A DNA stretch of 43,264 nucleotides, taken from the NCBI GenBank assembly GCA_949292795.1, contig CASFBR010000136.1, forward strand, positions 1-43,264. Reading direction: 5' to 3'. Origin of the DNA: an uncultured Eubacteriales bacterium (lineage in GTDB: Bacteria > Bacillota > Clostridia > Lachnospirales > Lachnospiraceae). A program made the position numbers and the translations under genes. The notes under the pieces were generated by a model, which searched no databases, was not told the origin of the DNA, and saw nothing but the letters and a program-made list of their open reading frames with translations. The number at the start of each line of letters is the position of its first letter. Within the stretch, counting starts at the first letter, position 1. This document shows, in pieces, positions 3,642 to 39,109 of this stretch.

Positions 3642-4145
3642 ATGTCCAAGGCGCGTAAGATCGCTTTTTCGGCACTTCTGGCAGCCGTGCTGTTTGTCGC
3701 TCAGGTGGCATTGTCTTTTCTGCCAAATATTGAAGTCGTGTCCATTCTGGTCATTGTCAGTGCGGTTGTTTTCGGGCGGCTGACACTGGTAAGCATTTAT
3801 GCCTTTGCTCTGCTGGAAGGCCTTTGCTATGGTTTTGGAATATGGTGGCTGAATTATTGTTATGTCTGGGCGATTCTTTACGGGATTGCCAGGGCGCTGC
3901 GGCGCCGTGAGAGCAGCTTCTTCTGGGCGGTTGCTTCCGGCGCTTTCGGGCTGTCCTTCGGATGCCTATGCGCCATCCCCTATGGCCTGGCAGGGGGCTT
4001 TTATGCCGCACTGTCTTATTGGATCAGCGGGCTTCCATTTGACATTTTGCACTGTGTAGGAAATTTTGTCACAGCTCTTGTGCTTTTTAAACCATTAAAG
4101 CAAGCCTGCTGCCACATCGGGCGGATGCTGGGGCTTTCTAAGTAG
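3642..4145 (+). CDS. ECF transporter substrate-binding (S) component
   Basis: A 167-residue, very hydrophobic protein with about five or six membrane segments. Its N-terminus SKARKIAFSALLAAVLFVAQVAL has the ARKIAFSALLAAL pattern and size usual for S components of energy-coupling-factor vitamin or metal transporters. The ATPase (EcfA) and EcfT subunits are not nearby, as expected of group II systems that share one module. Start ATG 3642 is preferred over a TTG at 3624. The DUF4430 gene just upstream suggests a cobalamin- or corrinoid-like ligand, but that is inference. The last 130 bp overlap, tail to tail, the glycosyltransferase gene on the other strand. Confidence 0.8.
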   Translation: MSKARKIAFSALLAAVLFVAQVALSFLPNIEVVSILVIVSAVVFGRLTLVSIYAFALLEGLCYGFGIWWLNYCYVWAILYGIARALRRRESSFFWAVASGAFGLSFGCLCAIPYGLAGGFYAALSYWISGLPFDILHCVGNFVTALVLFKPLKQACCHIGRMLGLSK

Positions 4146-4798
4146 CCGCACTCGATCATCTGCCGGATGACCTGCTGCTGCCGCTGCCGGGCCAGCCTGG
4201 GATTGGCCGTAGGCGCATAGATGGAGGGCGCGTTTGGTATACCGGCCAGGAGTGTTGCCTCATCGTCGTTTATCTGCGAGGGCTCCTTCCCGAAATAGCC
4301 TTCGCAGGCATCTGCGACACAGTAATAGCCGTCGCCAAAATAAATCGAATTTAAATACAGCTCTAAAATCTCATCTTTCGTAAAATGCTTTTCCATATCC
4401 ATAGCCATAAATACCTCGGCAATTTTTCGGGTGATGTCTTTATCCTGAGAAAAATACTGGTTTTTAGCAAGCTGCTGTGTAATCGTGCTTCCGCCTTCCA
4501 CCAGGCTTCCGGCTTTAAGATCATGGTAAAGCGCCCGGGCGATGGCAATCAGATCGATACCGCCATGACTGTAAAAGCGCTTGTCCTCTACACTGATGAC
4601 GGCGTTTTTATAAATATCTGGGAGCTCATCAATGGACGTATAATTGTCGATCGAGCGGATACGCAGCGCCATCTCATCAAGCCCTTCTTCCTCTATGGCT
4701 TCTTTATAATAGCTGTACCCTTTGAGTGTCAGATAGCCTCCGAGGCAGAGCATCGCTGTGAGCATCAGAAGAACAATGGATAATAAAAGCTTTTTCAT
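4016..4798 (-). CDS. Stand-alone GT51 peptidoglycan glycosyltransferase
   Basis: Polymerises lipid II into glycan strands outside the membrane. It has 260 residues, a membrane helix at about 4-26, then the GT51 domain of class A PBPs and monofunctional transglycosylases. The catalytic Glu71 lies in EDKRFYSHGGID, and GGSTITQQLAKN (103-114) and KDEILELYLNSIYFG are the other signature blocks. No transpeptidase domain is present, so it is monofunctional (MtgA-like). ATG at 4798 has AAAGGA upstream; the longer GTG start at 4819 overlaps that site. Residues from about 219 onward (ESPSIRPM to the end) read through the complement of the ECF gene and look unlike the family, so the C-terminal 40 residues may be a read-through tail. 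Confidence 0.88.
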   Translation of the reverse strand: MKKLLLSIVLLMLTAMLCLGGYLTLKGYSYYKEAIEEEGLDEMALRIRSIDNYTSIDELPDIYKNAVISVEDKRFYSHGGIDLIAIARALYHDLKAGSLVEGGSTITQQLAKNQYFSQDKDITRKIAEVFMAMDMEKHFTKDEILELYLNSIYFGDGYYCVADACEGYFGKEPSQINDDEATLLAGIPNAPSIYAPTANPRLARQRQQQVIRQMIECGYLESPSIRPMWQQACFNGLKSTRAVTKFPTQCKMSNGSPLIQ

Positions 4799-4894
4799 TG
4801 AATATGCACATCCTTTCACTTTTCACAAAACGTATATCGTAAATGTATCTTTACTCATAATTTAGCAAAGAAGCAGTGTATGTGCCATCGAAGC

Positions 4895-4985
4895 GGCTTA
4901 CAAAAGCGGCGCACTACCTTACAGTTGTGTAAGCCATAGGGTTTCACTTTTTGCTATGTGATTTTTCATCTTAAAAAGGTATAAT
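4895..4985 (+). promoter_or_regulatory. Possible operator palindrome and -10 box upstream of the fused TIM-barrel gene
   Basis: CTTACA-GTTG-TGTAAG at 4918-4933 is a 6-4-6 palindrome, and its right arm, extended as TGTAAGCC (4928-4935), is also complementary to GGCTTACA at 4895-4902. A consensus TATAAT lies at 4980-4985 with no good -35 at 16-18 bp. The remaining gap to 5089 holds a weak inverted repeat GTGCCA/TGGCAC (5006-5035). This is suggestive of repressor-controlled transcription of the gene at 5090. Confidence 0.35.
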
Positions 4986-5089
4986 TTTATTATAAAAGCT
5001 CCGGAGTGCCAACGGACATTTGTGCAGACTGGCACACAATGGTATCGGGGCATCCGGGGTGCAAAATTATATAAAGGGGGTTAAATTTT

Positions 5090-6505
5090 ATGGTCAATTT
5101 TATCAAACGGGGCGTCACTGTGTATAGCTTTAAGGAGAAGGTAACACTGGGCGAGCTCACATGGGAGGACTGCATTGCCGCCATGTCCAATATGGGGGTC
5201 CAGGGTATTGAGTTTCTCGGACAGCTTTTTTTTAGAAACTGCCCGGATATTAATACCGAAGATGTGGAAAACTGGAAGCACCTGATGTGGAAATATGGCA
5301 CAAAGACAGTGGCCCATGACTTCTTTGTCGACAAGACGATGTTTAAAAACAGAAACCTGACGCTGCGGGAGAGTGTGGACATTGTCAGGCGCCATGTACA
5401 GTTTGCCAAAGCTGTGGATTGCCCGATCATCCGTATCGGCGGTACTTTTGATCCGGAGCTGTTTAGGCAGGCTGCACCGATCTGCGAGGAATATGGCGTA
5501 AAGCTTGGCGTGGAAATCCATAACGGTTCATCTTCGTGGATACTGCCGTCAATCCAGAAAACGATTGAGATCATTAATCAGGTCAATTCACCCTATCTTG
5601 GGATCATACCGGATATGAGCATGTTTGTGAAACATATCCAGGACAGCGCCTATTTTGTGCGCGCGGCTCATGCTGCCGGTGTGCGCGAGGACCTGATCCA
5701 GTTTATGAAGGAAGCTTATGAAAACGAGTCCAATGAAGATTACCGTGCCCGCTGCGACCGGATGCTTGAACAAACTTCAGACAAGGCAGAACAGAATTTT
5801 ATCATTCAGTGCCGACGGACGGAATACCATGATCCGAGAGAGCTGCTCATCCATATGCCGTATATTCTCCATATTCATGGAAAGTTCTGGGAGATGGATG
5901 AAAACTGCGAAGAGACAAGTATCGACTATCCGAACATCCTTCCGGTACTTGTGGAGGGTGGATATGAAGGTTATATTTCTGCGGAATATGAGGGCGGCCC
6001 GGTTGACGGCGATCCCTTTGAGCCGCTGCGGCGCTACCAGAAGATGCTTGACCGCTATCTTGGCGAATATCCGGGCTATCCGATGCCAAAGCCAGGCGCG
6101 CCGGCAACCGACGTGCAGGTGCTTAGCAATAAGGGCTTTAAAAACCGCTATGACAGTGAAGGCAACTGCACGGGCTTTGAAGTATATGCGCGCTGCTTTT
6201 ATTACCGCGGTATTCCACTGTGTCTTGTCGATGACTGTCAGCTTACGGTAGACGGTGAACATTTTGGAACGGATAAGATCAGCTTTGGCGTGGAGGGCGA
6301 AGAATTTCGCTTTGAAGAAATGTCGACGATCCAGACATATTACTGGAATTATGGCCATCTGGCAACAATCATTGTGGACAAGCCCGGCGGACTGGACGAG
6401 ACAAAGGAGCATACGTTTGAATACAGTCACCGGCTCAGAACCTATTATCTGCCCTTTAATCACACCGGCCACGCCGTTGTGACCATGGGTGTGAAAAAAG
6501 ACTGA
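5090..6505 (+). CDS. TIM-barrel sugar isomerase/epimerase-like protein fused to a C-glycoside deglycosidase beta-like domain
   Basis: A 471-residue protein in two parts. Residues 1-325 are a xylose-isomerase-like/AP-endonuclease-2 TIM barrel with likely metal ligands Glu142 (GVEIHNG), Asp175 (IIPDMS), His261 or His263 (ILHIHGKF) and Glu299 (ISAEYEGG). Residues 341-470 match the DUF6379 pattern of the small (beta) subunits of C-glycoside deglycosidases: CFYYRGIPLCLVDDCQLTVDGE, here seen as FYYRGIPL and LTVDGE, then FEEMSTIQTYYWNYG, VDKPGGL and RTYYLPF. Known enzymes (DgpBC, CarBC) have these as separate alpha and beta chains that, with Mn, cleave the C-C bond of 3-oxo-C-glycosides made by a partner oxidoreductase. 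No Gfo/Idh oxidoreductase lies beside this gene. The function is inferred by domain resemblance; a sugar-acid or inositol epimerase is an alternative. It is monocistronic, with a strong terminator at 6541. Confidence 0.75.
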   Translation: MVNFIKRGVTVYSFKEKVTLGELTWEDCIAAMSNMGVQGIEFLGQLFFRNCPDINTEDVENWKHLMWKYGTKTVAHDFFVDKTMFKNRNLTLRESVDIVRRHVQFAKAVDCPIIRIGGTFDPELFRQAAPICEEYGVKLGVEIHNGSSSWILPSIQKTIEIINQVNSPYLGIIPDMSMFVKHIQDSAYFVRAAHAAGVREDLIQFMKEAYENESNEDYRARCDRMLEQTSDKAEQNFIIQCRRTEYHDPRELLIHMPYILHIHGKFWEMDENCEETSIDYPNILPVLVEGGYEGYISAEYEGGPVDGDPFEPLRRYQKMLDRYLGEYPGYPMPKPGAPATDVQVLSNKGFKNRYDSEGNCTGFEVYARCFYYRGIPLCLVDDCQLTVDGEHFGTDKISFGVEGEEFRFEEMSTIQTYYWNYGHLATIIVDKPGGLDETKEHTFEYSHRLRTYYLPFNHTGHAVVTMGVKKD

Positions 6506-6540
6506 TGAGATTTAGATAACCATATGGTAACTAAAGCTCA

Positions 6541-6576
6541 AAAAAAAGACACTTTTGCCAAAAAGTGTCTTTTTTT
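6541..6576. terminator. Strong rho-independent terminator (bidirectional form)
   Basis: A 16-bp perfect stem, 6541-6556 (A-tract then GACACTTTT) with 6561-6576 (AAAAGTGTC then T-tract), around loop GCCA. The A- and T-runs at either end let it act on both strands. It ends the gene at 5090-6505 and isolates the thiolase promoter immediately downstream. Confidence 0.92.
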
Positions 6577-6586
6577 AAAACGGGTA

Positions 6587-6648
6587 TTGCAAAAGCTATT
6601 GGCGGGGTGTATAATGGTTTCCAGAGATTGATAAAAAAATATCAATCT
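6587..6648 (+). promoter_or_regulatory. Sigma-A-type promoter and operator-like inverted repeat for the thiolase gene
   Basis: TTGCAA (6587-6592), a 17-bp spacer and a consensus TATAAT (6610-6615) predict a start near 6622. Directly at the start is a perfect 9-bp inverted repeat AGATTGATA (6625-6633) / TATCAATCT (6640-6648) with a six-A centre, well placed for a repressor. The remaining leader to 6895 (about 270 nt) has no gene; it holds a palindrome GCCGGAAAA-T-TTTTCCGGC (6708-6726) but no riboswitch class that I recognise. Confidence 0.75.
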
Positions 6649-6895
6649 AAAATGAGACTAAAATCATCGGAAAAATTGCGGAAGAAACGTATGCTCCGGA
6701 CATAAGGGCCGGAAAATTTTTCCGGCATCGGCCGGCTTCTGAAGAAAGAAATGTTCTTCATTGATTCTGGCATGGTTTTTGCTCTAAAGTAAAGTGATCG
6801 GCCGGGAACAGGTACGGACATTTGCCGGACTGTTATCGATACCGTGCAGTGCATGGCGCCGGCATCATTAGAGAAGTATAAAGGAGAGATTTAAG

Positions 6896-8074
6896 ATGAA
6901 AGAAATCGTTATTGCAAGTGCATGCAGAACTGCTATTGGCAGCTATGGCGGAACATTAAAGAACGTTCCGGCTGTGGATCTTGGTGCAGCGGTTGTTAAG
7001 GAAGCTGTCAACAGAGCAGGCATCAAACCGGAACAGGTAGATGAGGTGATTTTCGGTGATGTTCTTCAGGCCGGACTGGGACAGAACGTAGCCCGTCAGG
7101 TATCGATCAAGGCTGGACTTCCTATTGAGTGTACAGCGATGACGATTAACATCGTGTGCGGCTCCGGACTTAAGGCGGTTGCGCTTGCTGCAAACCAGAT
7201 CATTGCCGGTGAATCGGAGATCGTTGTGTGCGGCGGTACAGAAAATATGAGCGCAGCACCTTATGCCGTTCCATCCGCTCGCTGGGGCGCAAGAATGAAC
7301 AATGTACCGATGATCGATATTACTGTAAACGATGGTTTATGGGATGCTTTCAATGATTATCATATGGGTATTACCGCTGAAAATGTTGCTGAAAAATACG
7401 GCATCACAAGACAGATGCAGGATGAGTTTGCTGTAAGAAGCCAGAACCGTGCCGAGGCTGCGATTAAAGCCGGCAAGTTCAAGGACGAGATCGTGCCGAT
7501 TACGATCCCTCAGAGAAAAGGCGATCCGATCGTTTTTGATACCGATGAATTTCCAAAGTTTGGAAACACGATGGAGAAGGTTGCAAAGCTCCGTCCGTCC
7601 TTTAAGAAGGATGGTACAGTAACCGCGGCCAATGCGTCCGGTATCAATGACGGCGCTGCTGCACTTGTTGTTATGTCCAAGGAAAAAGCAGATGAGCTGG
7701 GCATTACTCCGATGGCAACGATCGTTTCTTACGCGACAGCCGGCGTTGATCCGAAGATCATGGGCGTAGGTCCGGTACCGGCTTCAAGAAAAGCACTTGC
7801 CAAAGCCGGCATGGAAATTAAAGATATAGACCTCGTAGAAGCAAACGAAGCATTCGCTGCTCAGTCTCTGGCAGTTGCGTCAGAGCTTGGCCTTGATATG
7901 GAAAAGACCAATGTCAACGGCGGCGCGATTGCCCTCGGACATCCGGTTGGCGCTTCCGGCGCAAGAATCCTTGTAACACTGCTTTACGAAATGCAGAAGC
8001 GTGATTCCAAGTATGGTCTGGCAACGCTTTGCATCGGCGGCGGCCAGGGCCAGGCGATGATCGTTAAGAGATAG
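6896..8074 (+). CDS. thlA: Acetyl-CoA acetyltransferase (thiolase)
   Basis: Condenses two acetyl-CoA to acetoacetyl-CoA (or cleaves it), the entry step of the butyrate/acetoacetate branch of clostridial fermentation. It has 392 residues, the normal thiolase length. The acyl-carrying Cys88 lies in [11 protein letters not shown], His349 in [17 protein letters not shown] and the proton-transferring Cys379 in [10 protein letters not shown], so the triad is complete. AAAGGAG precedes the ATG. The CoA-transferase genes follow on the same strand under their own promoter at 8075. The cell position is cytoplasmic. ThlA versus the degradative AtoB label is a matter of context; other butyryl-CoA synthesis genes are not in the window. 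Confidence 0.96.
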
Positions 8075-31810: not shown

Positions 31811-32635
31811 ATGAGTGAATGTAGTCAAAACTGCGGTTCCTGTTCTCAGGCAGATTGCAGTTCAAGAAAAGAAAGCTTTAAAGTGGAGGAAAATAAATAC
31901 AGCCATATCAAACATGTACTTGGCGTTGTAAGCGGCAAGGGCGGCGTAGGAAAATCGCTGGTGACTAGCGAGCTCGCAGTTCTTTTAAATAAAAAGGGCT
32001 ATAAAGTCGGTATTTTGGACGCGGATATTACAGGCCCTTCCATCCCGAAAATGTTCGGCGTTCATGAACAGGCCCTTGGCAATGATCAGGGTATCCTGCC
32101 GGCAGTTACCCCCGGCGGTATCAAGATCATTTCGATTAATATGATGCTGGATGACGAGGAGACGCCGGTTATCTGGCGCGGGCCGGTGCTGGCCGGTGTG
32201 GTAAAGCAGTTCTGGAATGAGGTTGTCTGGGGCGAGCTTGATTATCTGCTTGTCGATATGCCTCCCGGAACCGGCGATGTACCTTTAACGGTATTCCAGT
32301 CCCTTCCGGTCAGCGGTATCGTGATCGTCACCAGCCCGCAGGAGCTTGTGGAGATGATCGTAAAGAAAGCCTACAACATGGCAAAGCAGATGAATATCCC
32401 GGTTGTCGGCCTTGTACAGAACATGAGTTACCTTCTGTGCCCGGACTGCGGAAAGAAGATTTATATTTACGGCGAAGGCAAGGGCGAGGAAATGGCTAAG
32501 ACACTTGCAATCCCGGCGTATGCCGCACTGCCGATCGAACCGGCGATTGCTTCGCTGTGTGACCGGGGCGCTATCGAAGAATTTACTCACAGCTATCTGG
32601 ATGATATGATCCATTACATTGAGACAATCGCCTGA
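31811..32635 (+). CDS. mrp: Mrp/NBP35-family iron-sulfur carrier ATPase
   Basis: A P-loop ATPase of 274 residues that binds and hands over iron-sulfur clusters. An N-terminal Cys cluster (Cys4, Cys8, Cys11, Cys16 in ECSQNCGSCSQADC), the deviant Walker A GKGGVGKS (42-49), DADITGPSIPK (70-80), DYLLVDMPPGTGD (Walker B) and the CxxC pair Cys210/Cys213 (LLCPDCGKKIY) are all present. AAAAAAGGAGAG precedes the ATG. The stop is 26 bp before the FAD subunit of a molybdenum hydroxylase, whose 2Fe-2S subunit is encoded next, so it may serve cluster assembly of that enzyme. A general housekeeping role is equally possible. Confidence 0.93.
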   Translation: MSECSQNCGSCSQADCSSRKESFKVEENKYSHIKHVLGVVSGKGGVGKSLVTSELAVLLNKKGYKVGILDADITGPSIPKMFGVHEQALGNDQGILPAVTPGGIKIISINMMLDDEETPVIWRGPVLAGVVKQFWNEVVWGELDYLLVDMPPGTGDVPLTVFQSLPVSGIVIVTSPQELVEMIVKKAYNMAKQMNIPVVGLVQNMSYLLCPDCGKKIYIYGEGKGEEMAKTLAIPAYAALPIEPAIASLCDRGAIEEFTHSYLDDMIHYIETIA

Positions 32636-32660
32636 CAAGCAAAGGAGTAGGAGGAGATTC

Positions 32661-33467
32661 ATGTTTACTGCAAAAGATTACGCAATGCCGCAGAGCCTTG
32701 ATGAGGCGTATGAGGTATTGACTGCGCGCAAGACAAACCATATTGTTGCCGGATGCGCATGGCTGCGGATGGGCAATAAAAGAATCAATACCGCTGTTGA
32801 TTTGTCCGAAGCCGGGCTTGATTATATTCGGGAAACACAGGATGCCATTGAGATCGGAGCGATGACAAGCTACCGCAGTGTGGAGACAAGCCGTCTTTTA
32901 CAGGAAAATTTTTCAGGAATTTTAAGCCGGGCTGTGGCGCCCATTATCGGCGTACAGTTCCGAAACGTAGTGACAGTGGGCGGTTCGGTCTATTCGCGGT
33001 TTGGATTTTCGGATTTTCTGACGCCGCTGCTGGCGCTGGATACGAAGGTGAAGCTGTACAGGGAAGGTATGATGAGCCTTGAGGAATTTATGCAGATGCC
33101 CTATAAAAAGGATATTCTTGAAAAAATTGTCATCCGCAAAGGCACCATTACCGCCAGCTATCAGATGTTCCGCAATGCGGAGGCCGATTTTCCTCTGGTC
33201 AATGTTGCTGCGGTAAAAGAAAACGGCTGCTATAAAGTAACCGTGGGCGCCCGGCCGGGGCGGGCCGTCTGCGCTCCAAAGACAGCACAGTGCCTGACAC
33301 AGCTGCTGTCGGAGGGAAAGCCCGCAGACGAAGCCGCAGAGCAGGCAAAAGCGCTGCTTAAGTCGGAGATTTCTTTTGGGACAAATATGCGTGCCAGCGC
33401 CGGCTACCGCCAGAAAATTGCCGGCGTGCTCCTTGGACGGGCCGTAAAGGAGGTGGAGGGATGTTAA
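32661..33467 (+). CDS. Molybdenum hydroxylase FAD-binding subunit (xanthine dehydrogenase family)
   Basis: The 268-residue medium subunit passes electrons from 2Fe-2S centres to FAD and on to an acceptor. It has the CoxM/XdhB-like fold with the FAD-binding segments HIVAGCAWLRMGNK (replacing the usual AGGT-type turn), IEIGAMTSYRSVE, GVQFRNVVTVGGSVYSRFGFSD (FAD loop) and DFLTPLLALDTKVKLY. AGGAGGAG precedes ATG 32661; a longer frame begins at 32619 inside the Mrp gene. It overlaps the 2Fe-2S subunit by seven bases. The order FAD - 2Fe-2S - Mo subunit is common to bacterial enzymes of this family. Confidence 0.9.
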   Translation: MFTAKDYAMPQSLDEAYEVLTARKTNHIVAGCAWLRMGNKRINTAVDLSEAGLDYIRETQDAIEIGAMTSYRSVETSRLLQENFSGILSRAVAPIIGVQFRNVVTVGGSVYSRFGFSDFLTPLLALDTKVKLYREGMMSLEEFMQMPYKKDILEKIVIRKGTITASYQMFRNAEADFPLVNVAAVKENGCYKVTVGARPGRAVCAPKTAQCLTQLLSEGKPADEAAEQAKALLKSEISFGTNMRASAGYRQKIAGVLLGRAVKEVEGC

Positions 33468-33913
33468 TCCACATCAATATTAACGGTGAAAAGAAAAAGC
33501 TTCACTGCGATCCCGACGATATGCTCATGTCCGTGCTGCGTAGTGCCGGCTATAAGAGCGTAAAGTGCGGCTGCGATACGACCAACTGCGGGCTGTGTAC
33601 GGTGTGGCTGGAAGGAAAGCCGGTGCTTTCTTGCAGCGTGCCGGCGATGCGCTGCAACAATAAAAATGTAACAACACTGGAGGGTGTGCAGGAGGAAGCA
33701 AAAGTCATCGGCTCCCTGCTCGTTGACGAGGGCGCCGACCAGTGCGGCTTTTGCAGCCCGGGATTGATCATGAATATTATCGCGATGAAAAAGGAACTGG
33801 AAAATCCCACAGAAGAAGATATTTTACATTATCTGGCAGGAAATCTGTGCCGCTGCACCGGCTATATGAGCCAGATGCGGGCCATTAAGAAATATATGGG
33901 GGTAGAGGAATGA
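33461..33913 (+). CDS. Molybdenum hydroxylase 2Fe-2S subunit
   Basis: The small electron-transfer subunit, 150 residues. A plant-type 2Fe-2S centre uses Cys38, Cys43, Cys46 and Cys58 (CGCDTTNCGLCTVWLEGKPV then LSC), and the second centre in the helical domain uses Cys95, Cys98, Cys130 and Cys132 (QCGFCSPG; LCRCTGY). All eight ligands are there, plus an extra Cys36. Start and stop overlap both neighbours (ATG inside the FAD gene; ATGA with the Mo subunit), a tightly coupled operon. Confidence 0.95.
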   Translation: MLIHININGEKKKLHCDPDDMLMSVLRSAGYKSVKCGCDTTNCGLCTVWLEGKPVLSCSVPAMRCNNKNVTTLEGVQEEAKVIGSLLVDEGADQCGFCSPGLIMNIIAMKKELENPTEEDILHYLAGNLCRCTGYMSQMRAIKKYMGVEE

Positions 33914-36222
33914 GATATGTGAGCAGACCTGTGCGCAAGGTGGACGGCATGTCCCTTGTGACAGGAAAACCATTGTATACCAATGATTTAGCGCCCAGGG
34001 AATGTCTGATCGTCATGGCTTTGCGCAGCCCCTATGCCTATGCCCGCATCAAAGCGATTGATGTTTCGAAGGCACTGCTTGTCAAAGGCGTAGCCTGTGT
34101 CCTGACGTATAAGGATGTGCCGAAGGTTCGTTTTACCAATGCCGGGCAGACATATCCGGAGATGTCCTCCTATGACCGCCTGATCCTTGATGAGTATGTG
34201 CGCTATGTAGGCGATGAGGTCGCGCTGGTGGCCGCCTCCAATAAAAAAGCCGCTTTACAGGCGCTTAAGCTGATCAAAGTGGATTATGAAGTACTTACGC
34301 CGGTGCTGGATTATAAAAATGCGATGGATAATCCGGTCATTATTCATAATTATGATGATTATTTTAACCATTACGATTTCCAGGGTGAGGATAATAAACG
34401 CAATATCGTTGTCAATGGTGTGGAAGAGCACGGAGATGTGGACGCGGAGTTCGGGCGCTGCGATGTGATCGTGGATCACGAATATGAAACCTATGCCCAG
34501 GAGCAGTGTATGATGGAAACCTTCCGTACATATACTTATCTGGATCACAATGGCCGTCTTTGTGTTGTCACATCGACGCAGGTGCCGTTTCATGTGCGTC
34601 GTATTCTTTCCCGTGCACTGCAGATTCCGCAGACGCGCATCCGCGTGATCAAGCCAAGGATCGGCGGCGGCTTTGGCGCCAAGCAGACGGTCGTTTCAGA
34701 ATTTTATCCGGCTATTGTGACATTAAAAACCGGTATGGCCGCAAAAATGATCTATACCCGCCAGGAAGCCTTTATGGCATCCAACAGCCGTCATCAGATG
34801 TGCATCCGCGCCAGAGTCGGCGCCGATCATGACGGAAGTATACGGGCAATCGAGCTGACGACGCTGTCGAACCAGGGGGCCTACGGCGAGCACGGAACGA
34901 CGACGATCGGACTAAGCGGCCATAAGTCGATTCCGCTGTATAACCAGGCTAAAGCATTCCGTTTTAAATATACAGGCGTGTATACCAATACAATGCCCGC
35001 GGCGGCCTTCCGCGGTTACGGCGCAACTCAGGGACTTTTTGCCCTGGAGTCGGCGGTCAATGAGCTGGCAGTGAAGCTTGGCATGGACCCGACGGCTCTT
35101 AGAGAGAAAAATATGGTCCGTTTCGGCGAGCTGATGCCGGCCTATTATAATGAACCGCTGACAAGCTCGGCGCTGGACCGCTGTATTTATCGCGGCAAGC
35201 AGATGATCGGGTGGGACAAAAAATATCCGCGCGTTGAGGTCAGTGAAACAAAGGTAAGAGCGGTCGGTATGGCGATTGCCATGCAGGGCTCCGGTATCGC
35301 CAAGGTTGATACGGCCGGTGCGGAGATCAAGCTCAACGATGACGGTTACTATACGTTAAAGATCGGAGCGACAGATATGGGTACCGGCTGTGATACGATT
35401 CTGACCCAGATCGCAGCAGAAACGCTTCTGGCCGATATGGATCAGTTTATTATCGCACAGGTAGATACCGATGTTTCACCGTTTGATCCGGGCTCCTATG
35501 CGTCGGCGACGACTTATGTGACCGGTATGGCGGTGTATAACGCGGCCTGCGATCTGAAAAATAAAATTATTTTTGCCGGCGCCAAAATGCTTGACCCGGA
35601 AAAATATGATATGCCGCTGGAGCGGTTTAATCCGAAAAAGTTTTATTTTGACGGGACAAAGGTGACCGAGGTGGCGACCGGAAGAAGCGTATCGATCCAT
35701 GATATTGCAGTCCACAGTGCGGGAAGCTACCTTGGAAATTATCTTAACGGTTCCGGCTTTTATTCAAGCCCCACATCCCCGCCGCCGCTGATGGCCGGCT
35801 TTGTGGAGATCGAGCTGGACAAGGAGACCGGAAAGTATGAAATATTAGACTATGTCGGTGTTGTAGACTGCGGAACGGTCGTCAATACGAATCTGGCCCG
35901 GGTACAGACAGAGGGCGGTATCGCTCAGGGTATTGGCTTTGCCATGTACGAGGATGTCAAGTACAGCGACCGGGGAAAGATGATGACCAATTCCTTTATG
36001 CAGTATAAGATTCCTTCCCGCGTCGATGTCGGAAAAATCCGTGTGGAATTTGAATCCAGCTATGAGCCAAGCGGCCCTTACGGCGCCAAGTCCATCGGCG
36101 AGATCGTTGTCAATACGCCGGCTCCGGCCATCGCCGACGCGCTTAGAAACGCTGTTGGCATTAATATGCGGTCGCTGCCGATGACACCGGAAAAGGTGAT
36201 GGCTGCGATGGAGGCCCTGTAA
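33910..36222 (+). CDS. Molybdenum hydroxylase molybdopterin-binding catalytic subunit
   Basis: The large catalytic subunit, 770 residues, of the xanthine dehydrogenase/aldehyde oxidase family, which hydroxylates carbon next to nitrogen or oxidises aldehydes using water. Key blocks: VTGKPLYTNDL (start of the domain), PRIGGGFGAKQ (cofactor loop), AAFRGYGATQGLFALES, IGATDMGTGCDTILTQIAAE and the catalytic Glu731 in GAKSIGEIV. There is no in-frame UGA, so it is not a selenoprotein; with yqeB, yqeC and selD downstream, a labile selenium ligand on molybdenum (as in clostridial xanthine and purine hydroxylases) is likely. The substrate is open: no purine, nicotinate or other pathway genes adjoin it. 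A 14-bp tandem duplication (TAATACAGGCGGC) covers its stop. Confidence 0.9.
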   Translation: MRYVSRPVRKVDGMSLVTGKPLYTNDLAPRECLIVMALRSPYAYARIKAIDVSKALLVKGVACVLTYKDVPKVRFTNAGQTYPEMSSYDRLILDEYVRYVGDEVALVAASNKKAALQALKLIKVDYEVLTPVLDYKNAMDNPVIIHNYDDYFNHYDFQGEDNKRNIVVNGVEEHGDVDAEFGRCDVIVDHEYETYAQEQCMMETFRTYTYLDHNGRLCVVTSTQVPFHVRRILSRALQIPQTRIRVIKPRIGGGFGAKQTVVSEFYPAIVTLKTGMAAKMIYTRQEAFMASNSRHQMCIRARVGADHDGSIRAIELTTLSNQGAYGEHGTTTIGLSGHKSIPLYNQAKAFRFKYTGVYTNTMPAAAFRGYGATQGLFALESAVNELAVKLGMDPTALREKNMVRFGELMPAYYNEPLTSSALDRCIYRGKQMIGWDKKYPRVEVSETKVRAVGMAIAMQGSGIAKVDTAGAEIKLNDDGYYTLKIGATDMGTGCDTILTQIAAETLLADMDQFIIAQVDTDVSPFDPGSYASATTYVTGMAVYNAACDLKNKIIFAGAKMLDPEKYDMPLERFNPKKFYFDGTKVTEVATGRSVSIHDIAVHSAGSYLGNYLNGSGFYSSPTSPPPLMAGFVEIELDKETGKYEILDYVGVVDCGTVVNTNLARVQTEGGIAQGIGFAMYEDVKYSDRGKMMTNSFMQYKIPSRVDVGKIRVEFESSYEPSGPYGAKSIGEIVVNTPAPAIADALRNAVGINMRSLPMTPEKVMAAMEAL

Positions 36223-36265
36223 TACAGGCGGCGTAATACAGGCGGCATTTGAAAGCTTCAAGACA

Positions 36266-36287
36266 GCATTCGGAAATTTCCGGATGC
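36266..36287 (+). terminator. Possible weak terminator after the hydroxylase genes
   Basis: GCATTCGG-AAATTT-CCGGATGC forms an 8-bp stem with one wobble, followed by CGTTTGTT. The T-tract is poor. It may reduce but not stop transcription into the maturation genes downstream. Confidence 0.4.
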
Positions 36288-36327
36288 CGTTTGTTCGCCT
36301 GTGAAATAGTTTGGAGAATATATAACG

Positions 36328-36746
36328 ATGGAAAACGACATTGAAATGATTTATGCCATTGCAAAAAAAATAGATATGCCAGAGCCGGTGCAGGCGTCCA
36401 TCTGTCAGGCAGCGGCGCTGCTCCCGGCGGATGCGTCGGCGCTTATACCGTCACTTTCTGGCCCGCAATGGGAAAAAAGCCGGCTAAAGCTAAAAAAATC
36501 CTTGGCGATGACGGGCAGGGCATGAAAATGCTTGCCTGTATGCTTCGGGCTGCCGGCAATACACGGGAAAAATACAGGACTGCCGGAATCGATGCATCGG
36601 TTTTTATCGATACGATGAAGTGCTTTTCACGATTTGTCAGAGAACATAAAAACAGCTTTGGCGTATGGGGATTTGACCGGGACTTCTGGACGGGTCGGCG
36701 AGGCGTCCGGACGGCTTTTAGACGGCATCTGCCAGGAGGAAAAGAA
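36328..36746 (+). pseudogene. Frameshifted, truncated acyltransferase-like (DUF5596-type) gene
   Basis: The first frame (36328-36525, 65 residues) opens MENDIEMIYAIAKKIDMPEP with TTTGGAG upstream. At the run CTAAAAAAATCC near 36489-36500 the coding similarity moves to the -1 frame, continuing ILGDDGQGMKMLACMLRAAG, then KYRTAGIDASVFIDTMKCF, SRFVREH and GFDRDFWTGRR. The FIDTM-x-CFxRF and GFDRxxWT pattern resembles the N-terminal half of a GNAT-like/DUF5596 acyltransferase of about 280 residues, by memory. After WTGRR the match is lost and yqeC begins, so the C-terminal half is deleted. One missing A in the A7 run would explain the shift. Programmed -1 slippage at A-AAA-AAA is an alternative, though the truncation argues for decay. 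Confidence 0.6.
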
Positions 36747-37460
36747 ATGCTTTTAAATATTGAAGCTGTAATCGCTGAGCTTGATCTTCATAAAGGAAGC
36801 ATTGTGTCTGTTGTAGGTTCCGGCGGTAAGACAACGCTCATTGAAACGCTGGCGGAAGCGCTCTGTACGCAATACCGTGTCTGTGTGGCCGCTTCAACGC
36901 ATATGCGTGTTCCTCCGGCAGACGTGCACCGCCATCTGATCTTAAAGGACCAATCCGGTCTGTCAAATCCGTGCAGCCTTCCGGGCATTTACTATGCTGC
37001 CGATGCGCTTGTGCCCGGGGGAAAGCTTAGCGGATTTTCACCGGAAATGGTTCAATGGGCGCAGACGCATACGGATATAATTCTGATCGAGGCGGACGGC
37101 TCACGTTCACTGCCGCTGAAAGGCTGGGCAGAATATGAGCCGGTGGTGATCCGGGAGACGCAGATGACCATCGGCGTTATGCCGCTGTTTCTTCTCGGAC
37201 AGCCTGTTGGCCCGCATAATGTACACCGGTTTGAACTTTTTTCGCAGCTTACCGGAGCAAAAGACGGCGATATGCTGACCTGCGGGCACATTGTGGCTGC
37301 CATTACAGGAAGCAGAGGGCTTTTCGCAAAAGCAATCGGGAAAAAAGCAATGTTTTTTTCCCAGGTAAACACACCGGAGCTTAAGGAAGCGGCTGCGTTG
37401 ATTGCTGCAAAGCTGCGGCCGGATATAGACCCGGTCATCATTGGGAGCCTGCGGCCATGA
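36747..37460 (+). CDS. yqeC: Selenium-dependent hydroxylase accessory protein YqeC
   Basis: A 237-residue putative P-loop NTPase of the YqeC family, found almost only with selenium-dependent molybdenum hydroxylases. The N-terminus LHKGSIVSVVGSGGKTTLIETLAEAL holds the nucleotide loop VVGSGGKTT (about 19-27). VAASTHMRVPP, IILIEADGSRSLPLKGWAEYEPVV and ITGSRGLF are further family blocks. ATG 36747 with AGGAGG (36734-36739) is the natural start; the frame extends upstream to 36468 through the broken gene but without family similarity. ATGA overlap with the next gene. Its exact step in selenium insertion is unknown. Confidence 0.88.
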   Translation: MLLNIEAVIAELDLHKGSIVSVVGSGGKTTLIETLAEALCTQYRVCVAASTHMRVPPADVHRHLILKDQSGLSNPCSLPGIYYAADALVPGGKLSGFSPEMVQWAQTHTDIILIEADGSRSLPLKGWAEYEPVVIRETQMTIGVMPLFLLGQPVGPHNVHRFELFSQLTGAKDGDMLTCGHIVAAITGSRGLFAKAIGKKAMFFSQVNTPELKEAAALIAAKLRPDIDPVIIGSLRP

Positions 37461-38146
37461 GGGCGCAGGGAAATGGCAGCCGTGCCGCCAGCGGCGTGGC
37501 AGCAAAGCCGTCAGCCGTGTGTCTGGCAGCGGTTATTATGGCATCCGGATTTTCAAGGCGGATGGAAGAAAATAAGCTGTTGATGATGTATCAGGGAAAG
37601 CCTTTGGCGGCGCGGGTCATGGATCATGTAAAAACAGCCTGTTTTTTTAAGACGGTAGCTGTGGTTGCAGAGGATGCCGTAGGAAGGCTGGCTGAGGAGC
37701 GAAAGATTATCGTTGTTTATAATGACTGTCCCGGGCAGGGGCAGAGCCGGTCTGTGATGCTTGGCACACAGGCGTGTATGGATGCCGAAGGCATTATGTT
37801 TATTCCGGCAGACATGCCTTTTTTGACACCGCAGGTGCTAAGGCAGCTTCAGGCCGCATTTAATTTGTACCCGGACCGGATCATCCGTCCGCTTTATCTG
37901 CCGGTGCCGATGCCCGCAGAAGGCCTTCCACCGCTAAATCCCGAACGTCCGCAAAAGTGGATTCCGGGAAGTCCGGTAATTTTCCCAAGGTGCCTTTTTG
38001 GGGAGCTGTGTGCCTTAAGGGGGGATACCGGAGGCCGGGAGGTGCTGCGCAGGCATCCAAAGCTTGTGCAGACGGTAAAAATTAAGGACGCTTTAGCGGG
38101 AATCGATATCGATACGCCCCGGGATGCCATCCGGTGGCTGAAGTAA
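37457..38146 (+). CDS. mocA: MocA-like nucleotidyltransferase (molybdopterin cytidylyltransferase type)
   Basis: A 229-residue protein of the MobA-like NTP transferase family. The nucleotide-binding block AAVIMASGFSRRMEENKLLM contains the G-x-S-x-RM-xxNK signature, and FIPADMPFLTPQVL holds the metal-binding DMP; GSPVIFP and DTGGREVL fit MocA, which makes the cytidine dinucleotide form of the molybdenum cofactor used by xanthine-dehydrogenase-family enzymes. An alternative is a general MobA role. A disordered 22-residue N-terminus precedes the fold, so an internal start may be used. It overlaps yqeC by four bases, within one operon with the selenium genes. Confidence 0.85.
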   Translation: MRAQGNGSRAASGVAAKPSAVCLAAVIMASGFSRRMEENKLLMMYQGKPLAARVMDHVKTACFFKTVAVVAEDAVGRLAEERKIIVVYNDCPGQGQSRSVMLGTQACMDAEGIMFIPADMPFLTPQVLRQLQAAFNLYPDRIIRPLYLPVPMPAEGLPPLNPERPQKWIPGSPVIFPRCLFGELCALRGDTGGREVLRRHPKLVQTVKIKDALAGIDIDTPRDAIRWLK

Positions 38147-38302
38147 TGCCATCCGGTAAGCACAGCCCTGCATCCGGCGGTAAGCTCATGCAGGCCGCCG
38201 GCGGGGCGTCCGGTAAGCCCGCGCTAAGAAGTGACCGGGAGATTGAAGGCCGCCGTCTGGCGTGCCGGTGTATGCGTGTTAGGATTTAGGAGAGTGATTA
38301 GT

Positions 38303-39109
38303 TTGGAGAGAAGCGATTGTCTTGTCATTGTCCGCGGCGGCGGAGATATTGCAACAGGAACGATCCATTGTCTTGCCTCCTGCGGCTTTAAAGTGCTTGT
38401 GCTTGAGAGCGGACAGCCGACGACGATCCGACGTCTGGCGGCATTCAGCGAGGCAATGTATAAAAATGAGGTGACGGTGGAAGGGATATGTGCCCGGCGG
38501 GTATTTAAAAAAGAGGACATCCTTTCGGCCTGGAGACAGAAAGCCGTGCCGGTCATTGAGGACACCAAAGGGCTGTGGATTAAAACGATGGCTCCGCAGG
38601 TCGTGGTCGATGCCATTATTGCCAAAAAAAATACCGGTACGGATAAAACGATGGCTCCGCTTGTCATTGGCCTTGGCCCGGGCTTTTGTGCGGGCAGGGA
38701 TGTTCATGTCGTCATTGAGACAATGCGGGGACATCATCTGGGCCGTATCCTGCGGGACGGATATGCCCTTCCAAATACCGGGATTCCGGGGATCATTGCA
38801 GGCATTGGCAAAGAACGGGTCATCCACGCTCCGGCAGCCGGAACAATGCGGGAGGCGGCCGCTATCGGTGATCTTGTGCATCAGGGCGATGTGATCGCGT
38901 GGATCGGTGACACGCCGGTAAAAGCGTCCATCGATGGCGTTTTGCGCGGGCTTTTGCATGAAGGGCTGCCGGTGACAAAAGGCTTTAAAATCGCGGATAT
39001 TGATCCGAGAGCTTCAGAGCAGGGAAACTGTGTCACAATTTCGGATAAAGCCCGTACGATTGCCGGCGGCGTACTTCAGGCTATTTTAATGTCCGGCATG
39101 ATCGGATGA
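38303..39109 (+). CDS. yqeB: Selenium-dependent molybdenum hydroxylase maturation protein YqeB (EF2563 family)
   Basis: A 268-residue protein of the YqeB/EF2563 family, a marker of selenium-dependent molybdenum hydroxylases. It has a Rossmann-like start LVIVRGGGDIATGTIHCLASCGFKVLVLE, seen here as VRGGGDIATGTIH, and later GLGPGFCAGRDVHVVIETMRGH and a biotinyl-like hammerhead region (VHAPAAGTM near IHAPAAGTMREAA and IGDLVHQGDVIAWIG). The start is taken as TTG 38303 with TTAGGAG about nine bases upstream; GTG at 38294 or 38231 is also possible. The 156 bp before it hold only degenerate CCGGTAAGC repeats. selD follows 15 bp later. Confidence 0.85.
   Translation: MERSDCLVIVRGGGDIATGTIHCLASCGFKVLVLESGQPTTIRRLAAFSEAMYKNEVTVEGICARRVFKKEDILSAWRQKAVPVIEDTKGLWIKTMAPQVVVDAIIAKKNTGTDKTMAPLVIGLGPGFCAGRDVHVVIETMRGHHLGRILRDGYALPNTGIPGIIAGIGKERVIHAPAAGTMREAAAIGDLVHQGDVIAWIGDTPVKASIDGVLRGLLHEGLPVTKGFKIADIDPRASEQGNCVTISDKARTIAGGVLQAILMSGMIG

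Follow-up and report, generated by a model that had tools for sequence, protein, structure and literature searches.

A one-chain alpha-beta protein of the C-glycoside deglycosidase family from an uncultured Lachnospiraceae bacterium

The window, i.e., the whole stretch of 43,264 nucleotides analyzed here, contains a 471-codon open reading frame whose product is related to both subunits of the C-glycoside deglycosidases (Table 1). Upstream of it lie genes for a rhamnulokinase and a rhamnose isomerase and a divergent peptidoglycan glycosyltransferase-like gene (4016-4819, minus strand), and an acetyl-CoA acetyltransferase-like gene starts downstream at 6896. The product of the divergent gene is a short, 267-aa PBP1A-type protein; it aligns only with the initial, glycosyltransferase portion of longer penicillin-binding protein models, in all cases below the cut-offs. 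The window also carries a molybdenum hydroxylase cluster (31811-39109) with an XdhA-like subunit, which scores below its cut-off, and a YqeC selenium-cofactor protein, which scores above it. No oxidoreductase, transporter or regulator gene is found beside the window copy. The absence of a nearby Gfo/Idh oxidoreductase, as originally predicted, was borne out: tblastn with 15 Gfo/Idh proteins returned nothing in the window, and the genome's 12 Gfo/Idh domains all lie on other contigs.

The original prediction also placed the gene between its own control region and a strong terminator. The divergent gap upstream is real (4820-5089, 270 bases), but nothing specific emerged within it: a TATAAT at 4980-4985 was not called on the strand of the gene by the promoter scan, and the 11 promoter-like sites in 4780-6900 on both strands, as against 3.2 expected, are mostly intragenic or on the opposite strand. 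A regulatory RNA was rejected as no Rfam family matched anywhere in the window, and the upstream repeats were set aside as short and chance-like. Downstream, the hairpin is stable (16 pairs, -17.6 kcal/mol, z -5.96), but it is missing from the list of a simple terminator scan.

Table 1. Coordinates of the fused gene, its parts, flanking elements and putative active-site residues in the window, with reverse-order fusions from other genomes
Feature	Position	Strand	Basis or remark
One-chain alpha-beta C-glycoside deglycosidase-like protein, 471 aa + stop	5090..6505	+	ORF exact, ATG start
Ribosome-binding-like stretch AAAGGGGG, ATG 9 bases downstream	5073..5080	+	sequence
Alpha part, residues 1-326, TIM barrel with predicted four-helix insert	5090..6067	+	
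Linker, residues 327-342, Pro/Gly-rich, low model confidence	6068..6115	+	
Beta part, residues 343-466, CGDB (DUF6379) domain, strands in model	6116..6487	+	PF19906, solved beta chains, Foldseek
E142-I-H144, metal ligand and catalytic base (PuCGD E141, H143)	5513..5521	+	alignment; 7BVR numbering; PMC8563793
D175, metal ligand	5612..5614	+	alpha alignment
H263-G-K265, metal ligands (taken as AgCGD2 H269, K271)	5876..5884	+	alignment; spacing
E299-Y-E301, metal ligand and water-positioning Glu (PuCGD E299, E301)	5984..5992	+	alignment; 7BVR numbering
Terminator-like hairpin with flanking A and T runs, possibly bidirectional	6541..6576	+	fold energy
Three beta-alpha one-chain deglycosidases	L063:3981-5375, L064:6441-7928, L065:2968-4395		two other Lachnospiraceae genomes

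That this one frame joins both subunits, as first proposed, is upheld by two curated Pfam models, both far above their cut-offs: PF01261 (AP_endonuc_2) covers residues 30-308 (74 bits against 31.1), as had been suggested for the barrel, and PF19906, the C-glycoside deglycosidase beta subunit, covers residues 343-453 (94.7 bits against 27.6). The C-terminal part by itself, for which a match to the beta-subunit profile had been set beforehand as the test, gives an E-value of 3.6e-28, and the motifs named for it are found where they were described. Sequence searches place 8QVC_A (E 2.1e-64) and DgpC 7BVR_A (1.9e-40) as the nearest solved alpha chains, and DfgB (1.4e-11) and DgpB (2e-11) as the nearest solved beta chains. 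Thus, both an AP_endonuc_2-type TIM barrel, seen in Pfam and in fold matches, and a CGDB domain, seen in Pfam and in the matches to solved beta chains, are present. NCBIfam gave only weak matches to the protein, mostly to sugar epimerases and isomerases and far below the cut-offs. The single frame sets it apart from the two-chain sub-type (DgpBC, DfgAB, AgCGD2), and its alpha-then-beta order from the one-chain beta-alpha sub-type (M. testaceum CGD).

The closest folds to the window protein are deglycosidases; the VIA-align rows span residues 2-326 and barely cover the beta part, and a beta chain (7BVS_B) is present in the Foldseek list. In the model, four helices (188-195, 200-212, 215-228 and 232-243) separate the strand that ends at 175 from the one beginning at 262; in number they match the four-helix lid described for PuCGD and AgCGD2, on which PuCGD activity depends (PMC8563793). 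The linker region (330-346) has pLDDT values below 50, and the beta domain is modeled with low to moderate confidence, parts of it under pLDDT 60.

In an alignment of 27 alpha rows, comprising 23 from the loci (one fragment having been dropped) and four solved chains, E142, H144, D175, H263, K265, E299 and E301 are invariant in every row. By 7BVR numbering H144 and E301 correspond to PuCGD H143 and E301, identified by Mori et al. (PMC8563793) as the base and the water-positioning Glu. The remaining residues fit by order the Mn ligands reported there for AgCGD2 (E147, D179, H269, K271 and E305), a match made through the published numbering rather than by aligning the AgCGD2 sequence; the spacing of 36 residues between H263 and E299 equals that between H269 and E305. 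Hence, the metal ligands of the solved members (Glu, Asp, His, Lys and Glu), together with the base His and its Glu, are all kept. Among the ligands initially suggested, E142, D175, H263 and E299 survive this comparison; H261, in place of which other members may carry S, C, Y or E, does not, and K265, the base H144 and its helper E301 had been overlooked.

By these features the fusion is real and conserved, and the window gene probably encodes an active one-chain alpha-beta deglycosidase, a variant within a known enzyme family rather than a new kind. DgpBC (PuCGD/PuCGE, strain PUE) and DfgAB (EuCGD, Eubacterium cellulosolvens) have the same domains, and DgpC carries the same seven residues, including the base His143 and Glu301; however, both are described as two-chain alpha4beta4 complexes (PMC8563793, PMC11170127), and the C-glucosyl deglycosidase of Deinococcus aerius (8QVC, 8QVD, 8UMC) likewise has alpha and beta on separate chains. 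In strain PUE, dgpBC is clustered with the oxidoreductase gene dgpA, unlike the window gene (PMC8563793, PMC11170127). Catenibacillus, like the organism of the window a member of the Lachnospiraceae, has several dgpBC sets, at most six clusters (in C. decagia), with dgpA genes apart from them, and the accessible text of its description names no fused form (PMC11170127). A one-chain deglycosidase as such is already known from Microbacterium testaceum (8QRZ, 8UN2), as a single 435-aa chain in the reverse order, i.e., beta (7-121) followed by alpha (from 138), with 20-23% identity to the window protein. No description of an alpha-beta fused deglycosidase turned up in the open-access literature searched.

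Searching GTDB genomes for six exact peptide patterns, an approach limited to close relatives, recovered three relatives, all of them fused and 59-67% identical over the whole length, in MAGs of an Oscillospiraceae (L045), a Treponema (L046) and a sheep Lachnospiraceae (L047). In the family sample (E <= 1e-60), three of 299 genomes match: that of the window with three fused genes, G067 of the same genus with two, and G110 with separate alpha and beta genes that follow the order of the fusion and are split by 15 bases. The window's own genome is the sole match in both the class sample (391 genomes, E 1e-55) and the phylum sample (398 genomes, E 1e-50); the three samples overlap, and each is drawn from a larger group. 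The full-length fused proteins in four other genomes rule out a chance or annotation artefact. The eight alpha-beta fused proteins form one clade, with support of 100/100 in the alpha tree and 100/99, 99/98 and 98/99 in three beta trees. Within it, the window type (window protein, L045, L046 and L047) is separated from a second type (on contigs C163 and C19 of the window's genome and in G067) that is confined, as observed, to the window's own genus.

The relatives occur in richer surroundings. In L045 a Gfo/Idh gene lies 107 bases upstream of the fused gene and a two-chain pair downstream; L046 has a Gfo/Idh gene downstream and, further up, a second one and a two-chain pair, with genes between that look transporter-like from the starts of their sequences. 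In L047 the end of a two-chain pair precedes the fused gene by 32 bases, and the 17.4 kb covered gave no Gfo/Idh match. In G067 a fused copy, a dpp-type ABC transporter, a solute-binding protein and a Gfo/Idh gene stand in a row on one strand, with the second fused copy near. The enzyme encoded elsewhere that was originally envisaged thus has candidates, both in the window's genome and in the clusters of three of the four relatives, but none is tied to the window copy. None of the Gfo/Idh domains of the window's genome shares a contig with an above-cut-off CGDB domain, although the assembly is in 171 contigs. The second Gfo/Idh of L046 has an 82% identical relative in the window's genome (L059, contig C24), for which DgpA1 and DgpA are the top hits in the PDB, and that of G067 an 85% identical one (L058). 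Since the Gfo/Idh proteins adjacent to the fused genes of L045 and L046 reach no more than 27% and 31% identity, respectively, with their nearest counterparts there, the partner enzyme is not the same everywhere. The 82% identity between the DgpA-like oxidoreductase of the Treponema MAG (L046:1-1230) and L059 suggests an exchange between phyla or a mis-binned contig. Similar-looking esterase-like proteins are encoded near a two-chain deglycosidase (L028:5847-6719, contig C26) and beside the DgpA-like gene of C24 (L059:2057-2905); judged from their sequence starts, they perhaps strip acyl groups from glycosides.

Taken together, the window protein is likely to be a natural one-chain C-glycoside deglycosidase or eliminase that acts on 3-keto glycosides supplied by a separately encoded oxidoreductase. 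The chemistry described for solved relatives starts with a DgpA-like enzyme that oxidizes C3 and goes on to Mn-assisted beta-elimination (PMC8563793; PMC10628242), and the chemistry, metal, beta-domain placement and partner enzyme proposed here are modeled on them. The sugar C3 of a plant glycoside would first be oxidized by a Gfo/Idh/MocA oxidoreductase whose gene lies apart in the same genome, and the 3-keto glycoside would enter the cleft between barrel and beta domain. There, the keto-sugar would be bound by a Mn ion on E142, D175, H263 and E299 (perhaps also K265), and H144, with a water placed by E301, would take the C2 proton, resulting in beta-elimination to the free aglycone and an unsaturated keto-sugar. 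The beta domain, held by a short Pro/Gly-rich tether instead of being a second chain, would shape the aglycone pocket. The bare surroundings of the window copy, the missing Gfo/Idh gene in the 17.4 kb of L047, the dissimilar Gfo/Idh proteins of L045 and L046, the divergence of the fused clade, and the modest model confidence for linker and beta domain weigh against this picture.

Several other readings may be weighed against this one. Cleavage and epimerization had at first been offered side by side; since the deglycosidase metal and catalytic residues, including the base His and its Glu, are kept and the closest folds are deglycosidases, elimination is favored, and a protein that instead hydrates or epimerizes the sugar, in the manner of the hydratase AtHYD or the 3-keto-glucoside 4-epimerase YcjR, is improbable. 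The solitary position of the window gene among unrelated genes could also mark a decayed or idle paralogue left over after leaving its cluster, but this is very improbable given its full length, its complete set of seven residues, its 59-67% identity to three relatives across the whole length, and GC and GC3 values resembling those of neighboring genes.

The choice of substrate leaves more room. An eliminase restricted to 3-keto O-glycosides would share the site and chemistry but lack the features required for C-C cleavage, and thus overlaps the main reading; we consider it possible, if on the unlikely side. PuCGE cleaves 3-keto O- and C-glucosides alike, so that sequence cannot tell which of these the window protein takes, and the ability to cut C-glycosides is presented as a specialty added to a shared Mn site (PMC10628242). 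AtOGE, a 3-keto O-glycoside eliminase, is described as virtually identical in its Mn active site and elimination chemistry but unrelated by sequence to the CGD/CGE enzymes (PMC10628242). Further, all eight alpha-beta fused proteins carry a glycine pair, G117-G118, at positions occupied by Q/L/V and W/N/F/S in the four solved enzymes, and the branch leading to their clade is long (1.1-1.15 changes per site in the alpha tree); together these imply that its substrate may differ from the known ones, the glycine pair perhaps reflecting a different sugar or aglycone. Against the restriction to O-glycosides, the relatives adjoin other CGD and Gfo/Idh genes, the setting known for C-glycosides, although this does not separate O- from C-substrates. 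The broader deglycosidase or eliminase reading remains the preferred one.

Across the Lachnospiraceae sample, 34 of 397 genomes contain at least 85 CGDB domains, with 11 candidates scored in each of the window's own genome, G067 and G046, out of 18, 17 and 12, respectively. Six of those listed lie in open frames of at least 470 aa, three of alpha-beta type and three of beta-alpha type (two in G110, one in G689). These reverse fusions, together with 8QRZ, counter the notion of a unique fusion, and the three from Lachnospiraceae do not cluster together in the trees. A single clade of all 11 fused proteins was rejected by the alpha data (p-AU 4.8e-70) and less firmly by the beta data (p-AU 0.016); this test group was defined once the first trees were known, combines the two orders and includes some long branches. 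Hence, more than one origin of one-chain deglycosidases, in both orders, is most likely, and the Microbacterium fusion, which is absent from the trees, presumably represents a separate event, judged by its reverse order. More speculatively, one old alpha-then-beta fusion might have founded a lineage that traveled between Bacillota and Spirochaetota as part of catabolic clusters and now serves glycosides not accepted by the two-chain enzymes; alongside the beta-alpha fusions of Lachnospiraceae and Microbacterium, it would show a two-part site repeatedly welded in both orders.

C-glycosides withstand ordinary glycosidases, and the bacteria and enzymes able to cut them decide what people and animals gain from many plant compounds. 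A one-chain form fixes the alpha:beta ratio and may ease expression, crystallization and engineering. For annotation, counts of adjacent dgpB-dgpC pairs overlook such enzymes: in the 2.89 Mb genome of the window, three of 16 above-cut-off CGDB domains are inside fused proteins. This complement fits a specialist of plant glycosides; 29 of the 34 positive Lachnospiraceae genomes have one to three such domains, and G067 may equal the window's genome, all 11 scored of its 17 candidates being positive. The domains are spread over contigs C120, C3, C26, C130, C145, C154, C46, C103, C9, C65, C161, C83, C19 and C163 (L026-L039). Among the 13 separate beta genes, 11 adjoin an alpha gene, and those on C161 and C83 are near contig ends; C3 has two closely similar beta-alpha pairs in tandem. 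A partial alpha subunit of 211 aa, which may be broken, is encoded on C170 (L040:6666-7301), a contig on which no CGDB domain was found.
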